The position numbers were made by a program, and so were the translations under genes. This document shows, one piece after another, positions 1-56,139 of a stretch of DNA of 64,000 bases. Below the pieces are notes generated by a model. It saw only the letters and a program-made list of their open reading frames with translations, was not told where the DNA came from and did no database searches. Source of the DNA: Saccharofermentans sp. GTDB lineage: Bacteria > Bacillota > Clostridia > Saccharofermentanales > Saccharofermentanaceae. Position 1 is the first letter of the stretch. The number at the start of each line of letters is the position of its first letter. Where the stretch lies: assembly GCA_016292215.1 (NCBI GenBank), contig JAEFBB010000002.1, forward strand, positions 53,327 through 117,326, given 5' to 3'.

Positions 1-2676
1 GAACCCTCTGCGGTTATAAAGTCCCGTAAGGAAATCCTGTTCGGACAAAAGCTCGCTCGCCTTGTTTTTAGTGATGAGCTTGCGGTTGTTATTGACTGCG
101 TTTACCGCAGCATTAACAAAGAGACTGAACTCTTCAAAACGCTGTTCTGACCTTAAAGATACGCGGTCGTATCCGTTGGCGACATAACCGAATATCTCTT
201 TGCGGGATCTTATCTGTCTGAACAGCAAAACGTTGATATTGCTGTCGGGATCAAGGATCAGATCGTAATCCGGGATCGGATACTTCATGCGGTAGAACTT
301 ATGGGCATTGGAATACTTGTTTCCTCTGCCGTGGAAGATGCTGTGACAGCACTCTTCTTCCTGAGTAATGCCGACGAAGTAATACTGGCTCTTCCACATC
401 CAGATCGAGTTCCTTAAGTTCGCTGCAGCGTCATCGAGATTGTCAGACGAAGTCATGCGCGAAACGAAGTGGCCCATCTCAAGCATATGCCTGAATGAAT
501 TCTGGCTTTCTTCCGTAAGCACTTCAACAGCATTTGACCACGGGAACTGCGAATCCATCCTGCAGCCGCAGGACTGCATAAACAGCGGCTTGTAAGGAAT
601 GGTGAAAGTGTCATTGCATTTATTCTTATACTCTTCCCAGCACTTGATCCTTAAGAGTATCTGCTCAGGTATCTTCTTATAATCGAGCTCGCAAGTCGTA
701 ACTACCGGAGCGTGGAACAATGCCTGCCAGATCCCGTCAAAGCCCGTAACCATTACGTCTTCAGGGACTTTAATGCCCCTCTTGCTTAACGAATCGCAAA
801 CTCCGATCGCCATTGAATCGTTGGCGCAGATGATAGCGTCAGGGATCTCATAACCGTTATCAAGGGCATCGTCTAAGACCTCACCAGCTCTCGCCTGCCA
901 GAAGTCACCGTAGAAGATCCTCGATGAAGAAGGATCTATTCCGCGCTCTTTAAGAACGTCCTTAAATACGTTAAGCCTTGCGTCAGAGAAACGGTTATCC
1001 TTAATGCCTGCCATCATGTCGAGGCGCTTTGCACCGTGGACATCGACAACGTGCTCGACGATCTGTCTGAAGCCGTTCTCATATTCAAAATCAGCGTTGA
1101 TACATCCGTCCAGAGAATGCTGGAACGTGATGACGGGAATGTCTTTTTCGTGCCCTATACTGACCAATCTTTCCAATACTTCAGAAGACTTTATCATCTC
1201 ACTGAAGATGATGATCGCCGCAAGCTCCATGCGCTTCAAAAGATCGGCAAACTCGACCTCCAATTCCGCCTGGAGAGTGCCCGTATTGCTGTCATTGAAA
1301 GTAAAACTCGTGATGACGTAATTCTTTTTAATCTCCTCCGACTGGAGCGATCTTAAGAAGAGACTGTAGTTATCTGAATCGTTCCAGACTCCGCAGACTG
1401 CAATAAGCTTGCGCCTGTTGGTGTTCACCGGTCTCCTCTTTAATGTGATATTCCTGATGTGGATCGAAGCCTTTGAAATGGCTTCGATAGCAAATACTAC
1501 AGATGCCTTGTCACAGTCTTCATCGATCTCGAAAAGCATCCTGTGCCTCTGCCAGTGGCTCTCAAGGCTTACCGTGTAAGGATCTATTATCAGCGTGCCG
1601 TCTTTATCAGATTCAAACTGGCATCTGATGGTACGCGCTTCATCTACTCTTCCGTCAAATGAGAACTCATATGTCTCACCTTTCCTGAAAGGGAATCCGC
1701 CCTGCAAAAGCCTCGTCTCGCCGGAAGTGCCTGATATGAAAGACGGCGTGATGATAAGCTCGTCTTCCATGAAAACGACATTGGCATTGAGGTCGCCTTC
1801 AACAACGTAGAAAGCATTGCTGTCACTGTTCTTTACACTGTCGTCAGTGTTGAGTGTCAGTATCCTTGCAGGTCTTACGACCTGTCTGTCATATCTCTCC
1901 TTCTGATAGACTCTGACATAATCTACGAGCAGTTCGGAATCTTCATCAAAGCTTGTCGGGACCGCCATTCCCGCGCCAAGCTTATTGCCGCCTACTGCAA
2001 CACCGATAACAAGATGGAATGGTTTATTAAACGGTGCGGGATAAGGCTCTTCGGTCTCTCCGCTTCTTTTAAACCAGAAGGAAGTCCTGTAATACTCCTT
2101 GCCGTCGCATGCGAAGATTATCTCATCCTGATCCCACTCGCAGGAGAATAGATGGAAATCACCGGAGAAGTCCGTATTGAGTCTTCTGTAGTTTCCGACA
2201 CGCTGGGTATAAGGATAACCGAATGCAACGCGCGAGACAGCTTCGTCAGCTCTTGCGCCTTCGATCTCGACCATGTCGATCTGACCGTGAAGCGGGAATT
2301 CTTTATACTCTCCGTTCTCTTCATCATAGCCTTCGTCAGGCATCAGTCTGATATAGCTTAAAAGACCCCTGGTCTTAGGGACCTTGATCCTTGCTACTAT
2401 TCTTCCGTATTTAAAATCCTGTCTGCCGAAAGTGCTGATCCTTGCAGAGTAATAACTGGTCGCGCCCGAACGGTCGGTCTCGATCTTAGGCCTTATGCAA
2501 AGACAGCTGTCTTTAAATTCTATGCATTTATCGCCGGAATATTCCTGTCTCTCGCCGTCAATCCATCCGGAAGCACGTGTCTCCGCGCTCCAGACAGAAT
2601 CATTGATATTATTGCTGTTAAAGTCATCGGACCAGGCAACATGATACCCGTCCGGGAGCGAGATCTTATTAATCAT
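1..2676 (-). CDS. Multidomain sensor (partial, runs off left edge): GH16-like domain, CBM-like segment, LacI/Peripla_BP_3-like sensor, GAF-like region, start of GGDEF
   Basis: Manual minus-strand translation from ATG at 2676 (MINKISLPDGYHVAWSDDFNSNNIND...) is open for 892 codons to base 1. GH16-like 'GQIDMVEIEG' and terminal 'YVRVYQ'; PBP-like 'DAIICANDSMAIGVCDSLSKRGIKVPEDVMVTGFDG' and 'SCGCR'; final residues 'SEQDFLTGLYNRRGF' match a GGDEF start. Absent from the ORF track because no stop lies in the window. Confidence 0.9.
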   Translation of the reverse strand, partial: MINKISLPDGYHVAWSDDFNSNNINDSVWSAETRASGWIDGERQEYSGDKCIEFKDSCLCIRPKIETDRSGATSYYSARISTFGRQDFKYGRIVARIKVPKTRGLLSYIRLMPDEGYDEENGEYKEFPLHGQIDMVEIEGARADEAVSRVAFGYPYTQRVGNYRRLNTDFSGDFHLFSCEWDQDEIIFACDGKEYYRTSFWFKRSGETEEPYPAPFNKPFHLVIGVAVGGNKLGAGMAVPTSFDEDSELLVDYVRVYQKERYDRQVVRPARILTLNTDDSVKNSDSNAFYVVEGDLNANVVFMEDELIITPSFISGTSGETRLLQGGFPFRKGETYEFSFDGRVDEARTIRCQFESDKDGTLIIDPYTVSLESHWQRHRMLFEIDEDCDKASVVFAIEAISKASIHIRNITLKRRPVNTNRRKLIAVCGVWNDSDNYSLFLRSLQSEEIKKNYVITSFTFNDSNTGTLQAELEVEFADLLKRMELAAIIIFSEMIKSSEVLERLVSIGHEKDIPVITFQHSLDGCINADFEYENGFRQIVEHVVDVHGAKRLDMMAGIKDNRFSDARLNVFKDVLKERGIDPSSSRIFYGDFWQARAGEVLDDALDNGYEIPDAIICANDSMAIGVCDSLSKRGIKVPEDVMVTGFDGIWQALFHAPVVTTCELDYKKIPEQILLRIKCWEEYKNKCNDTFTIPYKPLFMQSCGCRMDSQFPWSNAVEVLTEESQNSFRHMLEMGHFVSRMTSSDNLDDAAANLRNSIWMWKSQYYFVGITQEEECCHSIFHGRGNKYSNAHKFYRMKYPIPDYDLILDPDSNINVLLFRQIRSRKEIFGYVANGYDRVSLRSEQRFEEFSLFVNAAVNAVNNNRKLITKNKASELLSEQDFLTGLYNRRGF

Positions 2677-2710
2677 TCAGCTGATCTCCAAGGATCTACC
2701 TTGAAAAAAA

Positions 2711-3388
2711 TTACCTGTCCTCTTTGAATGCATCATCGTCGTTTTCACGGGCCATGATGTACTTGTAGCAGTCATCAGCGCTGACTTCAAATGCCTTGAA
2801 GATATCCTTAACGGAATCATAGATAGCCTTGCATCTGATGATATCTACAGTATCGTGAGCCTGTGAGAAAAGGCCGAAAATAAGCATGTCATACATCTTA
2901 TAGAAGTCGACCTTGAAAGCATCGAATTCATTGATCGCTCTGATGAACAGTTCCTTATTCTCAGGTACATAAGTACGCATAAGGTTAAGAAGATGCATCT
3001 CCTTCTTAACGCATCCGGAAATAGCATTAACGCTGGACTTGATTCCGGGGTTTACTGTTCTTGTGTTATAACGGACGATAGTCATGGAGAGCTCGTCGAC
3101 CATGTCAACGCACTCTTCGATGTGTCTGATCATCTGGAAGATATAGATCCTCTTCTCAGGATCCTGCACACATTCATGAAGCTTGTCTGCTGCAGCGTGG
3201 AAAATGATGTCGCCGTCATTCTCCAGCTTATTGATACGCCTTGAGATCGCTACTCGGTCTTCAATCTTCTCGAGCATGCCCAACAGCTCGATAGTCTCCT
3301 CGTTAAGTACGTCAGACAATTTCGCAGCCTGATCGAATAAGTATTCGCGATCTTCAATGGTCATTGGCCTATCCTCCTTAGAAAACAT
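2711..3388 (-). CDS. DUF47 family (PhoU-like) protein
   Basis: 225 aa helical protein, 'AAKLSDVLNEETIELLGMLEK...HIEECVDMVDELS'. Confidence 0.8.
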   Translation of the reverse strand: MFSKEDRPMTIEDREYLFDQAAKLSDVLNEETIELLGMLEKIEDRVAISRRINKLENDGDIIFHAAADKLHECVQDPEKRIYIFQMIRHIEECVDMVDELSMTIVRYNTRTVNPGIKSSVNAISGCVKKEMHLLNLMRTYVPENKELFIRAINEFDAFKVDFYKMYDMLIFGLFSQAHDTVDIIRCKAIYDSVKDIFKAFEVSADDCYKYIMARENDDDAFKEDR

Positions 3389-51326: not shown

Positions 51327-52978
51327 TTTTCTTCCTCATATGCATCCATCGAGAACCAGAAATTCGTTCCTTTATAGCCGCTGTAACATGCGTATTTTGC
51401 TTTATGAGCATCAAGTATGCTCTTTACGACTGAAAGTCCCACGCCGCTGTTTCCTTCAGTTTCTTTTCTGCCTTTCCTGGTGTTGTAAAGAACATCCCAG
51501 ACTTTTTCCAGATCGGGTTTATCAATCTTAGCGCCGTCATTTGTGATGCTGAATTCTACTCTTTTTGCCGTCTTGCTCAGCCTGATCTTTATGGTGTGCT
51601 CGCAATACTTAATGGCGTTTGTCATGAAGTTATTTATAACGATGTACATCATCTCGAGATCTGCATATACAGGATATTCTTCCGCTTTGTCATCGCATTC
51701 GATCGTCAAATCAATATCCTTTTTCCTTATTGATTCCAAGTTTCTTTTCTTAATGTTTTTGGTAAGAAGCAGAAGATCGACATCTTCCCTGTTAAGCTTA
51801 ACGCTGCCTTCTTGAACTTTAGACAATTCAAGGAGTCTCGTGACCAGAGATGACATATGATCAACTTCAGATATAATCTTTTCTGAATACTCGGGGCGCT
51901 TGTCTTCATCTACGTTTTCCCAGTTATTAAGGTATTCCCTGGTTACAGCCAAAGGACCCTGAAGATCATATGCGATGCCTTTCGTAAGCTTTTCGCTCCT
52001 TAATTCAAACCTCTTCTGATTAAGGTAGAGTTTTCTTACAGCAAAGATTATGACTGCTTCTACCAAAACGAGTGCCAGGAATGACAGAATATAGATAATT
52101 AAGTGGTCCCTGATGACGAGCTGAAGCGGATTTATTACAAAACAATAAGTAACTATGTAATGACCTTTATCGAAAACATAGATTTCAGTACAAGTCGTAG
52201 TGAAAATGCCTTCCTTGACATCAACACCTGCAGGTGCATCTCCATTTAAGTGCTTGTCAACATACGCATCACTTATCTTATGAGCTTTTCTGTTTATCCC
52301 GGAATCTCCGCCAAAGCTATGGTATTCTATCTCATCAATCCTGACGATCCATTCTTCATAAGGAACGTTTTCAACTTTATTAACGACACCGGGCGTTGCG
52401 ATATTAAACGACTTAACCTCAGTATCATACGTATAAGACAGCAGGCCTCCGTATATGAATCTGTCATCGCATCTTGCTCCCTTTATCGAGACTTCATTAT
52501 TGACCGGGTTTCTGAGATCTGAAACTTCGTCCGGTGTAAGCGACAGCGGTTCTTCAAAAAATATATAACGTGAATCACCGGGAACCAGCTGAGTTGATTT
52601 TTCTTCATATCTTTCCGGAGAATCCTCTATAACCTCGATCTCTATCTCGCCATAATAACGGACTATAAAAAAGTCCTGAGATTCGAACAACACAGTGTCC
52701 TTATTGGTATCAACAATGGAAGAGTAAAAACCGACATCGTTATTCATGTAAGACAGGTATTCCCATGTTAATACCGTATTGCCTACAATAGGTTTCAGTT
52801 CTTTAAAACTTGAATTATCCGGATTCCCCATATATGTATAGGGCAAAAGCGAAATGTTACGCAATCCGTCATTTAATTCATCGATCTTTTTCTTGGAATA
52901 AAACGAGATTGCTGCCAGAAAAATAAGCAGCGCTGCAAGACAATAAATTATTCCGAAGCTTAAATAATTCTTTTTCAT
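51323..52978 (-). CDS. Histidine-kinase-like protein lacking the phosphoacceptor His (H to Y)
   Basis: Paralog of the 50037 gene; H-box reads 'LTKGIAYDLQGPLAVTR' (TAT codon at 51968-51970); ATPase N- and G2-box retained ('NNFMTNAIKY', 'NSGVGLSVVKSIL'). Confidence 0.93.
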   Translation of the reverse strand: MKKNYLSFGIIYCLAALLIFLAAISFYSKKKIDELNDGLRNISLLPYTYMGNPDNSSFKELKPIVGNTVLTWEYLSYMNNDVGFYSSIVDTNKDTVLFESQDFFIVRYYGEIEIEVIEDSPERYEEKSTQLVPGDSRYIFFEEPLSLTPDEVSDLRNPVNNEVSIKGARCDDRFIYGGLLSYTYDTEVKSFNIATPGVVNKVENVPYEEWIVRIDEIEYHSFGGDSGINRKAHKISDAYVDKHLNGDAPAGVDVKEGIFTTTCTEIYVFDKGHYIVTYCFVINPLQLVIRDHLIIYILSFLALVLVEAVIIFAVRKLYLNQKRFELRSEKLTKGIAYDLQGPLAVTREYLNNWENVDEDKRPEYSEKIISEVDHMSSLVTRLLELSKVQEGSVKLNREDVDLLLLTKNIKKRNLESIRKKDIDLTIECDDKAEEYPVYADLEMMYIVINNFMTNAIKYCEHTIKIRLSKTAKRVEFSITNDGAKIDKPDLEKVWDVLYNTRKGRKETEGNSGVGLSVVKSILDAHKAKYACYSGYKGTNFWFSMDAYEEEK

Positions 52979-53059
52979 CTTTTTTCTTCCTTTCTACGAC
53001 TTCCGTCTTTGTTCATCGTGAGTATAGGAAAAAGATGTGACCTCTTTATGACCATCAGA

Positions 53060-54115
53060 TCAGTGAAGGATACCGGATAATCTCTCATCTGTTGAAAGAA
53101 GAGCTTTTGCCAGTTCTCTGTATTTTTCTTCATGTAGATATGTGTGACGGTGGGGCTTGATCGAAGGAGCCATGTCTATAGCATTGCTGAAATCCGAAGC
53201 CTTGAGCTCAAGAGTCGCGCAGTAATCCCAGAAGCCCGTCTTTGTAAATATCTCATCTACTCTCTTCCATCTGTGGTCCAATATCTTGCACATGATGTAT
53301 GTCGCGATACCTACCTGTACGCCGTGAAGCTGGGGGCGCTCCAAAAGCTGGTCCAAAGCGTGTGAGATAAGGTGCTCGGAGCCGCTCGTCGGCGCGCTCG
53401 ATCCTGCGATCTCATTGGCTACGCCGCTCATTGCAAGTGAATCAAGGAGTTCTTTGAGGAAGAGGTCTTCGCTGACAGATTCAAAAGGCGTTCTGACGAA
53501 TGAATTGACGGCCTTCTTGGCTACCATAAAAGCGAAATCATTTACTTCGTCATAGCCCATATCCTCTTCGTGCTGCCAGTCGTATGTGGACTGGATCTTC
53601 GCGACCATATCGCCGATGCCCGAATAAAGGAATCTTACAGGCGCGCTCTTGATGACATCGGTATCAACGAGGATGCCTGATGCCATCTTGGCAGGCAGTG
53701 ACTTTCTGTGTCCGTCAACGATAAGAGACGCGGAAGAACTTGAGAAACCGTCTGAAGAAGAACTCGTCGGAACGCTGATAAAAGGGATCCTCAGGATGTA
53801 TCCGATATACTTCGCGGCATCGATTACCTTGCCGCCGCCCATGCCGATAATGGCCTGCATTTTGTTGGGCAGCTCAAATGCCAGATTCGTAATATCAACG
53901 AAATCAACGGTATCCATTTCCTGATGGTGCAACACCTTGACGCCGGCTTTCTCGAAGGACTCGAAAACAGTACTGCCAAACATGTCGGTAAGACCGTTAC
54001 CAAAAAGGATCGTTACCTGCTCAATGCCTGCGTCTTTCAGGTATTCGCCGATGTTAGCCGTAACGCCGCGCTCGATCTTAAGGATTACCGGAATCGATAT
54101 TTCGTCTTTAGGCAT
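53060..54115 (-). CDS. sn-glycerol-1-phosphate dehydrogenase (AraM/EgsA-like)
   Basis: 'IIGMGGGKVIDAAKYIGYILRIPFISVPTSSSSDGFSSSSASL', 'SGSEHLISHALDQL...LHGVQVGIATY'. Confidence 0.9.
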   Translation of the reverse strand: MPKDEISIPVILKIERGVTANIGEYLKDAGIEQVTILFGNGLTDMFGSTVFESFEKAGVKVLHHQEMDTVDFVDITNLAFELPNKMQAIIGMGGGKVIDAAKYIGYILRIPFISVPTSSSSDGFSSSSASLIVDGHRKSLPAKMASGILVDTDVIKSAPVRFLYSGIGDMVAKIQSTYDWQHEEDMGYDEVNDFAFMVAKKAVNSFVRTPFESVSEDLFLKELLDSLAMSGVANEIAGSSAPTSGSEHLISHALDQLLERPQLHGVQVGIATYIMCKILDHRWKRVDEIFTKTGFWDYCATLELKASDFSNAIDMAPSIKPHRHTYLHEEKYRELAKALLSTDERLSGILH

Positions 54116-54129
54116 AGTATTTATCTCCT

Positions 54130-54810
54130 TTATCCGATTACTTCAGGAACCACTTTTATAAGCTCTGCAAAACTGTCAATAACAGGCACTTCGGTATTGA
54201 TCGTGCCAAAGCCGTATCTTGCGTGAATGAACGGAAGACCTGCCTTGTGAGTAGCATCATAGTCGCTCTGTATGTCGCCTACATAGCACGCAGCCGTAAG
54301 GTTATTGCGCTCTGCCATAAGCCTGATGTTCTCATCCTTTTGCAGGAAATTGTTGCCATAGCACTCGATATCCTCAACGAGGTCTTCGGGATTGCCGTAA
54401 GGAATATTGTAGTAACCCAGGAACGACTCGATATAGCCTTCCTGGCAGTTGCTTACGATGTAGATGTGATAACCCATCTCTTTAAGCTTTCTCCAAGTCT
54501 CGATGATGCCTTCATAAAGGATGCCGCCGTTTTCTCTTAAGTACTGATTCTCATAATTTTCACACGCGAATCTGAGCGCGTCTCTCTCAGGACCCTTCTC
54601 GGTGTAAGGGAACAACGTATCAGCAATAACATCCATGGGCTTGCCCATGACGCTCTGGATATCTTCTCTTGTGACGGACTTATCAGGATAACCAGCTTCA
54701 TGGATCTTCTCGGTCCAGGACTTCGCTACGTTCTCCGAAGAATCCCAGACGGTGCCGTCCATATCAAAAATAATGCCTTTTTTCTCAGTCATGTTTTTAA
54801 CCTTATCCAA
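54130..54810 (-). CDS. HAD family hydrolase (phosphoglycolate-phosphatase-like)
   Basis: 'GIIFDMDGTVWDSSENVAKSW', 'IYIVSNCQEGYIE', 'YVGDIQSDYDATHKAGLPFIHARYGFG'. Confidence 0.92.
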   Translation of the reverse strand: MDKVKNMTEKKGIIFDMDGTVWDSSENVAKSWTEKIHEAGYPDKSVTREDIQSVMGKPMDVIADTLFPYTEKGPERDALRFACENYENQYLRENGGILYEGIIETWRKLKEMGYHIYIVSNCQEGYIESFLGYYNIPYGNPEDLVEDIECYGNNFLQKDENIRLMAERNNLTAACYVGDIQSDYDATHKAGLPFIHARYGFGTINTEVPVIDSFAELIKVVPEVIG

Positions 54811-54932
54811 TTGTTAATTAGCCTATTATACCCCCATTATTAAATTCTGTTGACTTTTATAATCGCATTAGGTGATAATGCAGGCATAGCAGGAACAGGC
54901 AAGCGCATTTACATATTTCGCGAGGTACCCAT

Positions 54933-55877
54933 ATGTATGTAGTATTTTTGTTCGTAGCCGCCCTATTATTTTTCATCGCTGACCGCAAGCTCCGCGCGGC
55001 ATTCATTCCCGGAATCTTAATAACGATCACAGCATGTTACGGATTCGTATACAGATGCATTTTGCTCTTTGTTAATCAGAACATGAGATTGGCCTTGTCT
55101 CCGAGATCGATCTTTGGAACTCCGTCAGGCCGCGCTATCGTTATAATCTGCTTAACTTTACTCGTCTCGGCATTATGTTGCTTCGCTTTGCTGTCTTTGG
55201 GCAAGCTTTTATCAGCAGCGATCTTCAAAGCATCAAAAGACGGAAAAGGATCCAGCATCTTAGCCCGCATCTTCTGCATCATCGGCGGAGCTCTTCTGCT
55301 CCCGTTCGGCGGATATTTCATGTATCTTAGAAATTTCGTAGCAAGACCCGCCGGCCGGGCAGCTATAAATCTCGTTCGTTTTCTCGGGGCACCGGGTTTT
55401 GCAAAATATAATTCAAACGTAATCTACGGATGTTTATTGATCGCGCTTGGCATAGTATTGATCATCCTGTTCTGCACACCTGTTTTCCGCGCCAAGCAGT
55501 TAAAGGCAGCGGATCCTTCCGCCCAGCCGTTAAAGCTTAGGACCGGTATGTCCACCACAGGAATCATCTTATCCTGCCTCGGAAATGCCGGCGTCCTCAT
55601 CACTGCGCTTGTAGGCCTCATCTCCTGGCATGAGGTGTTTTTCTTTAACGGATACGGATACACTAAGGTCCTCTGCATATTGTTCCTTTTACTTATGATC
55701 TTAGGACTTACCTTCATATCTATGGGACTTTATAAGATCGTTGTAAAAGGACAGCTCAAGAACCACAAGGGCCGCATGATCTTCTCCCTGATCCTGATAG
55801 GATTAACTTTTATAGATTGTTTCTGTCTGATATCAAACGCTCACAAATTCGCTGGGATAGCATTTGCTTTCAGATAA
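54933..55877 (+). CDS. Multi-pass membrane protein, unknown function (paralog of 56298-57395)
   Basis: 314 aa; 'MYVVFLFVAALLFFIADRKLRAAFIPGILITI...'. Confidence 0.75.
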   Translation: MYVVFLFVAALLFFIADRKLRAAFIPGILITITACYGFVYRCILLFVNQNMRLALSPRSIFGTPSGRAIVIICLTLLVSALCCFALLSLGKLLSAAIFKASKDGKGSSILARIFCIIGGALLLPFGGYFMYLRNFVARPAGRAAINLVRFLGAPGFAKYNSNVIYGCLLIALGIVLIILFCTPVFRAKQLKAADPSAQPLKLRTGMSTTGIILSCLGNAGVLITALVGLISWHEVFFFNGYGYTKVLCILFLLLMILGLTFISMGLYKIVVKGQLKNHKGRMIFSLILIGLTFIDCFCLISNAHKFAGIAFAFR

Positions 55878-55965
55878 ACTGACACGGAATTTCCGAAAAC
55901 ATCAAACGCCAGTCTTTTCGACAAGTGATATAATTCAGTTATAAATCTTAAACGGAGGTACCCAT

Positions 55966-56139
55966 ATGGATATTGACATCAACAAGGCAAAAGATGCTGC
56001 ACAGGATGCATTGGAGAAGGTCACAAAGGACGAGAAGAGCAAGAAAGCTGCTAACGACGTCATCGAGACCGTAGAGAAGAAGATCAATGTAGATCTTCCC
56101 GATGTTGATACTATTGCTGGTGCTTTAGGCAAGAAGTAA
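55966..56139 (+). CDS. Small 57-aa charged, predicted helical protein
   Basis: GGAGG RBS then ATG; MDIDINKAKDAAQDALEKVTKDEKSKKAANDVIETVEKKINVDLPDVDTIAGALGKK*; followed by a terminator hairpin. Below the track's length cutoff. Confidence 0.75.
   Translation: MDIDINKAKDAAQDALEKVTKDEKSKKAANDVIETVEKKINVDLPDVDTIAGALGKK

Follow-up and report, generated by a model that had tools for sequence, protein, structure and literature searches.

A gene of Saccharofermentans sp. was found to encode a degenerate GH16 fold, a CBM4/9-like domain, a LacI-type PBP domain without an HTH, a GAF-like domain, a signalling helix, and a GGDEF domain, in this order, in one polypeptide. We consider the product to be probably a cytosolic diguanylate cyclase, in which the input half consists of carbohydrate-recognition folds (a captured, dead GH16-CBM4/9 unit and the LacI-type PBP) and c-di-GMP synthesis would be set by a ligand.

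Reading frame and domain architecture

The fusion gene lies on the minus strand at positions 1–2676 of the window, which is the whole stretch of 64,000 nucleotides that was analyzed (G000:C36:53327-117326). Its last 146 codons and the stop codon lie past base 1 (contig G000:C36:52886-53326). We extended the gene on the contig, where it spans positions 52886-56002 and ends 441 bases past the window edge, and obtained 1038 aa with no stop and no frameshift. A sequence-only reading of the window had described a single unbroken minus-strand frame missing from the track of open reading frames. The frame, open from 2676 to 1 at the edge, stays open through 1038 aa, and its absence from the track is accounted for by the window edge, which cuts the gene. 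That reading had staked the fusion on a GH16 fold, an uninterrupted gene, and a GGDEF domain beyond the edge; a GH16 fold was found, no frameshift was present, and the extension past base 1 yielded an intact RYGGDEF motif. A frameshift or two separate genes were ruled out by the continuous 1038-aa frame and by the orthologs described below.

The translation start (2674–2689, minus strand) comprises GGAG at 2686–2689, located 10–13 nt 5′ of the ATG at 2674–2676, and an in-frame TGA at 2677–2679 that abuts the ATG. The TGA leaves no space for a missed signal peptide and thus rules out one hidden behind an earlier start. No TM segment was found in the fusion protein, in which the maximum 19-residue hydropathy was 1.33, compared with 2.49 for a nearby membrane GGDEF protein. 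With neither a signal peptide nor a TM segment, the protein is predicted to be most likely cytosolic; the TGA before the ATG and the hydropathy values uphold the earlier claim on this point.

The GH16 fold (1891–2655, minus strand; aa 8–262) was detected by Pfam at aa 74–233 (5.8e-12, above cut-off) and by a PDB sequence search, in which laminarinases aligned to aa 10–259 (E 5e-25). In the AlphaFold model (mean pLDDT 82), this part matched the fold of the Thermotoga maritima laminarinase 3azx with a TM score of 0.80, and the domain and structure check that had been proposed thereby confirmed the fold. The CBM4/9-like β-sandwich (1423–1809, minus strand; aa 290–418) consists of β strands in the model; the Pfam match to CBM_4_9 at aa 328–396 is weak in the window protein (0.017) and stronger in relatives (2.8e-9 in one of them). 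The LacI-type PBP domain (577–1416, minus strand; aa 421–700) matched Pfam Peripla_BP_3/1/4, with Peripla_BP_3 at aa 547–669 (3.3e-15, above cut-off), and its model matched the folds of LacI, CelR, and RbsR, including a complex of CelR with cellobiose. No HTH was matched in the fusion protein by Pfam. The protein thus combines Peripla_BP and GGDEF in one chain without an HTH, as PBP-GGDEF cyclases do. At the junction of the PBP and the following helix, an SCGC motif (562–573, minus strand; aa 702–705) was observed, in which S, C, and C are invariant and G is nearly so in 29 aligned fusions; both cysteines being invariant, a metal or redox site is possible.

The GAF-like domain and the long signalling helix (43–540, minus strand; aa 713–878, helix 841–878) were assigned from the model and Foldseek. 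The GAF-like segment had no Pfam match and, when modeled separately, gave PDB matches that were mostly GAF and marginal (best E 7.5e-4, TM about 0.5). The GGDEF domain starts at 1–42 of the minus strand (aa 879 onward) and was matched by Pfam at aa 880–1035 (2.8e-31, above cut-off). Its motif is intact (RYGGDEFAI, with GGDEF itself at aa 957–961, outside the window) and is kept in 46 of 46 fusions. The RxxD inhibitory I-site is common in diguanylate cyclases and not essential to them; the canonical site is absent here, with K and G at −9 and −6, and therefore classical product inhibition through the I-site is not expected. Of the domains listed in the sequence-only reading, GH16, CBM, LacI-type PBP, and GGDEF are supported by Pfam or fold matches, and the GAF-like one by the marginal fold matches.

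Relatives and gene neighborhood

We searched 115 family genomes with the N-terminal part, and 188 order and 292 class genomes with the full profile. The proposed search for the same domain order returned GH16 fusions on a PBP-GAF-GGDEF chassis in 49 of the 85 genomes of the window's genus, which belongs to the rumen Clostridia. These comprised 24 genomes with class A, 15 with class B, and 10 with GH16-only fusions, one class per genome. The class A orthologs examined have the same architecture as the window protein and are 63–93% identical to it across the N-terminal 427 aa; class B, also GH16 plus CBM, shows 33–38% identity. No GH16 fusion was found outside the genus among the family, order, and class genomes sampled, and the PBP-GGDEF chassis without GH16 is present in other Clostridia. 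When 85,462 species genomes were scanned with two peptide patterns, GH16 fusions appeared, among the matches listed, only in L093 (G073, Ruminococcaceae bacterium RUG12748), L094 (G014), and L095 (G030, from sheep reticulum). No second GH16 was found in the window's own genome (assembly 92% complete). The N-terminal GH16 recurs on the PBP-GAF-GGDEF chassis as a module that can be swapped, in one genus as far as sampled.

Directly upstream of the fusion gene lies a gene for a PhoU_div/DUF47-like protein of 225 aa (2711–3388, minus strand; E 0.001, below cut-off), found in 20 of 20 class A loci. Together with yggS and sepF, both assigned by sequence resemblance, the DUF47/PhoU-like gene is upstream in 19–20 of 20 class A loci. 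This shared neighborhood bears on the suspicion that GH16 and GGDEF genes were falsely joined during assembly or binning, or that the contig is a contaminant, in a genome of 73 contigs with an estimated contamination of 6.6%. The same unbroken architecture recurs in independent genomes, and the orthologs refute such an artifact, to which we attach almost no probability.

In 18 of the 21 class A loci, the fusion gene is followed after 10–226 bases by another PBP-GGDEF gene, whose product has about 767 aa (e.g., L034 and L093:9168-11471:+). This tandem partner is absent at the locus of the window and at that of its sister L033, and none was found in L052, where the stretch ends at the contig end. 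Among the GGDEF proteins of the window's genome, in which 13 GGDEF matches were counted, none closely resembled the partner. The membrane GGDEF protein mentioned above (389 aa; L002:5639-6808:+, contig G000:C36:50965-52134) is convergent with the fusion gene, with a PAP2 phosphatase gene between them. A glycan-use locus is not indicated by the neighbors of the window gene (yggS, sepF, DUF47-like, and PAP2), and the protein-family scan left several neighbors without any match. In the class B member L057, a GH5 cellulase gene is located two genes downstream. For RNA control, the window gave no Rfam match at the gathering threshold.

Degenerate active site and origin of the GH16 part

The catalytic residues of GH16 follow the consensus E-x-D-x-x-E. 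In an alignment with 3azx and relatives, the corresponding motif of the window protein is Q132-I-D134-M-V-E137 (2266–2283, minus strand), GEIDIME of the T. maritima laminarinase being aligned with GQIDMVE, and Gln replaces the nucleophile Glu. The string GQIDMVEIEG, previously cited for the GH16-like N-terminus, is an inactivated GH16 active site. With subsite roles taken over from SCLam and ZgLamA (PMC7961093, PMC4606783) by alignment and not from coordinates, R110 (2347–2349, minus strand) replaces the −1 subsite stacking Trp, which is present in 22 of 22 secreted relatives; A151 and K232 stand in place of the +1 His and Trp, respectively, G225 in place of a cleft Asn, and D40 in place of the −2 Asn. 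D134, E137, and R79 are retained, and the aromatic residue of the −2/−3 wall is retained as F127 (W to F). The Gln at the nucleophile position and the rewired cleft argue that the GH16 part is, judged from its residues, a pseudoenzyme and not a working glycosidase.

The nucleophile is Gln in 21 of 21 class A proteins, and the fusions that have lost it carry Q, S, R, D, T, or C there; the acid/base is also gone in two class A proteins and in most of class B. Structural biologists have exchanged the same nucleophile for Ser or Ala to trap glucans, as in SCLam E144S and ZgLamA E269S (PMC7961093, PMC4606783); the position used for those mutants is Gln in class A and Ser in most of class B. Among the 46 fusions examined, the catalytic E-D-E is intact in 0 of 21 class A, 0 of 15 class B, and 5 of 10 GH16-only proteins, and is thus absent from all 36 fusions with both GH16 and CBM. 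E-D-E plus five further cleft residues are kept in 1 of 46 fusions versus 22 of 22 secreted relatives (Fisher p 6e-17, a descriptive value since relatedness is ignored). A rule that every fusion is dead was ruled out by the five GH16-only fusions that retain E-D-E and by L068, which retains the full cleft. The latter (L068:5114-7774:-, G030:C22) is a GH16-PBP-GGDEF protein with E-D-E, all cleft residues checked, and no evident signal peptide, and could possibly be an active cytosolic GH16 on a cyclase.

These residues also bear on an alternative in which the GH16 part still cleaves a glycan inside the cell by an altered mechanism and this reaction is coupled to the c-di-GMP output. The retention of D134 and E137 in the window protein, of E-D-E in the five GH16-only relatives, and of the checked cleft in L068 would be in line with it. 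The double-displacement mechanism of GH16, however, depends on the nucleophile and is abolished by its loss, which applies to all of class A, and the acid/base is missing as well from the proteins named above. We regard this alternative as very improbable.

All fused GH16 domains group in a single clade (bootstrap 97, SH-aLRT 87) inside the secreted GH16 proteins of the lineage, and the GH16-CBM4/9 order is found in many of the latter as well. The secreted relatives (n = 22) start with a lipoprotein-type signal sequence and keep E-D-E and the cleft. A secreted glucanase thus appears to have been captured, shorn of its export signal and catalytic residues, and fused to a c-di-GMP enzyme. Purifying selection acts on the dead GH16 domain: dN was 0.035 and dS 0.471 (dN/dS about 0.07) when the window protein was compared with the ortholog nearest to it, and the other domains were alike.

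Other N-termini occur on the same chassis. L187:2466-4850:+ carries CBM4/9 as the sole N-terminal domain, and L188:2426-4747:-, L189, and L190 carry a β-rich domain of about 150 aa without a Pfam match. In eight genomes of the genus (L191-L198, e.g., L195:2414-4591:-), the N-terminal domain is barstar, the barnase inhibitor (two proteins scanned, with Pfam E values of 9e-15 and 8e-18); such a fusion could connect c-di-GMP with a barnase-like RNase. The CBM-only, β-domain, and barstar versions sit among the GH16 fusions in the chassis tree, which was built by a quick method with a distant, long-branched outgroup, and this placement suggests that the N-terminal module was replaced or lost.

The barstar siblings are relevant to the main rival explanation, in which the GH16-CBM unit has lost sugar binding and serves a structural or protein-docking role, in dimerization or in contact with the tandem PBP-GGDEF protein, while the PBP alone senses. 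Barstar is a protein-binding fold, the sugar subsites are rewired with positively charged residues, and the tandem gene accompanies most class A fusions. There is also a precedent in Rv0315 of Mycobacterium tuberculosis, a bacterial GH16 that, like the GH16 of the fusion, has lost activity, and that lacks key substrate-binding residues and no longer binds laminarin (PMC4606783). Rv0315 differs in that it has no signalling fusion and owes its inactivity to the missing substrate-binding residues, the catalytic Glu-176 being still present. On the other hand, the CBM4/9 domain is retained and a CBM-only version exists, and the partner is missing from this locus in the window species and its sister, where GH16 nonetheless remains under purifying selection. 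We judge a docking role to be rather unlikely.

Known systems and the proposed input of the cyclase

The PBP clan is prevalent among c-di-GMP proteins, and a review of c-di-GMP networks names only one studied PBP-clan input and no glycoside hydrolase, sugar control being described there as exerted via the PTS (PMC8846402). The fusion protein resembles PBP-GGDEF cyclases in having a LacI-type PBP followed by GGDEF, and differs from them in carrying an additional GH16-CBM unit with a dead active site at its N-terminus, and in its lack of a TM segment and cytosolic location. RsgI of Clostridium thermocellum likewise uses a carbohydrate-active GH/CBM module as regulator input (PMC6056542), and in reference 36 of that paper, glycoside hydrolases are regarded as putative carbohydrate biosensors. 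The RsgI sensors, however, are extracytoplasmic and membrane-spanning and control sigma-I, whereas the fusion protein appears wholly cytosolic with c-di-GMP as its output; no signal peptide, TM segment, or Pfam anti-sigma domain of the RsgI type was found in it. The invertebrate βGRP/GNBP3 proteins carry a glucanase-like domain without activity in a signalling receptor (PMC7915573), a likeness by sequence only. They are secreted animal immune proteins in which a separate N-terminal domain binds glucan, whereas here the protein is cytosolic and GH16 itself is N-terminal. The nearest kin of the fused GH16 are the secreted GH16-CBM4/9 lipoproteins of the family, which share its domain order and differ in having a signal peptide, an intact E-D-E and cleft (22 of 22), and no regulatory output.

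We propose that a ligand would bind the PBP and/or the pseudo-GH16/CBM unit, that binding would alter the dimer, and that the change, relayed via the GAF-like domain and the 38-residue helix (aa 841–878), would set c-di-GMP synthesis at the GGDEF dimer. Likely ligands would be imported oligosaccharides derived from plant or microbial glucans. In this mechanism the GH16 part probably serves as a sensing module. The rewired cleft (R110, A151, G225, and K232) means that its ligand may be something other than glucan oligosaccharides; binding of β-glucan by the fusion protein, as read from the residues, is plausible and is undermined by this rewiring. The receptor reading is favored by the CBM-only N-terminus on the same chassis and by the resemblance of the PBP to sugar-binding repressors. 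It is weakened by the rewired −1/+1 subsites together with the laminarin precedent of Rv0315, by the five GH16-only relatives that retain E-D-E, and by the neighbors of the window gene, which do not point to glycan use. Of the earlier proposal that a glycosidase fold serves as input to a cyclase, the fold on a diguanylate cyclase holds and its input role is the best reading; "glycan-sensing" is what we infer.

To our knowledge, the inputs of most PBP-GGDEF cyclases are unstudied. PBP-GGDEF proteins, GH/CBM sensors outside the membrane (RsgI), and an inactive glucanase-like receptor domain (βGRP/GNBP3) were already known. In the literature searched, with subscription journals and preprints outside the search, we found no paper describing GH16-GGDEF or barstar-GGDEF fusions or a glycoside hydrolase as input to c-di-GMP, and no mention of a cytosolic inactivated GH16 within a diguanylate cyclase. 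We advance tentatively, with somewhat less than even confidence, the broader account that one rumen genus recruited a glucanase, lost its catalysis, and used it as an intracellular glycan receptor over c-di-GMP, on a chassis that swaps it for CBM-only, β-domain, and barstar inputs. An ancestor of known chemistry, the secreted GH16, and catalytic sisters in the genus make this conversion of an enzyme to a signalling domain directly testable. If glycan sensing is true, products of fiber breakdown would be tied to c-di-GMP in rumen bacteria.
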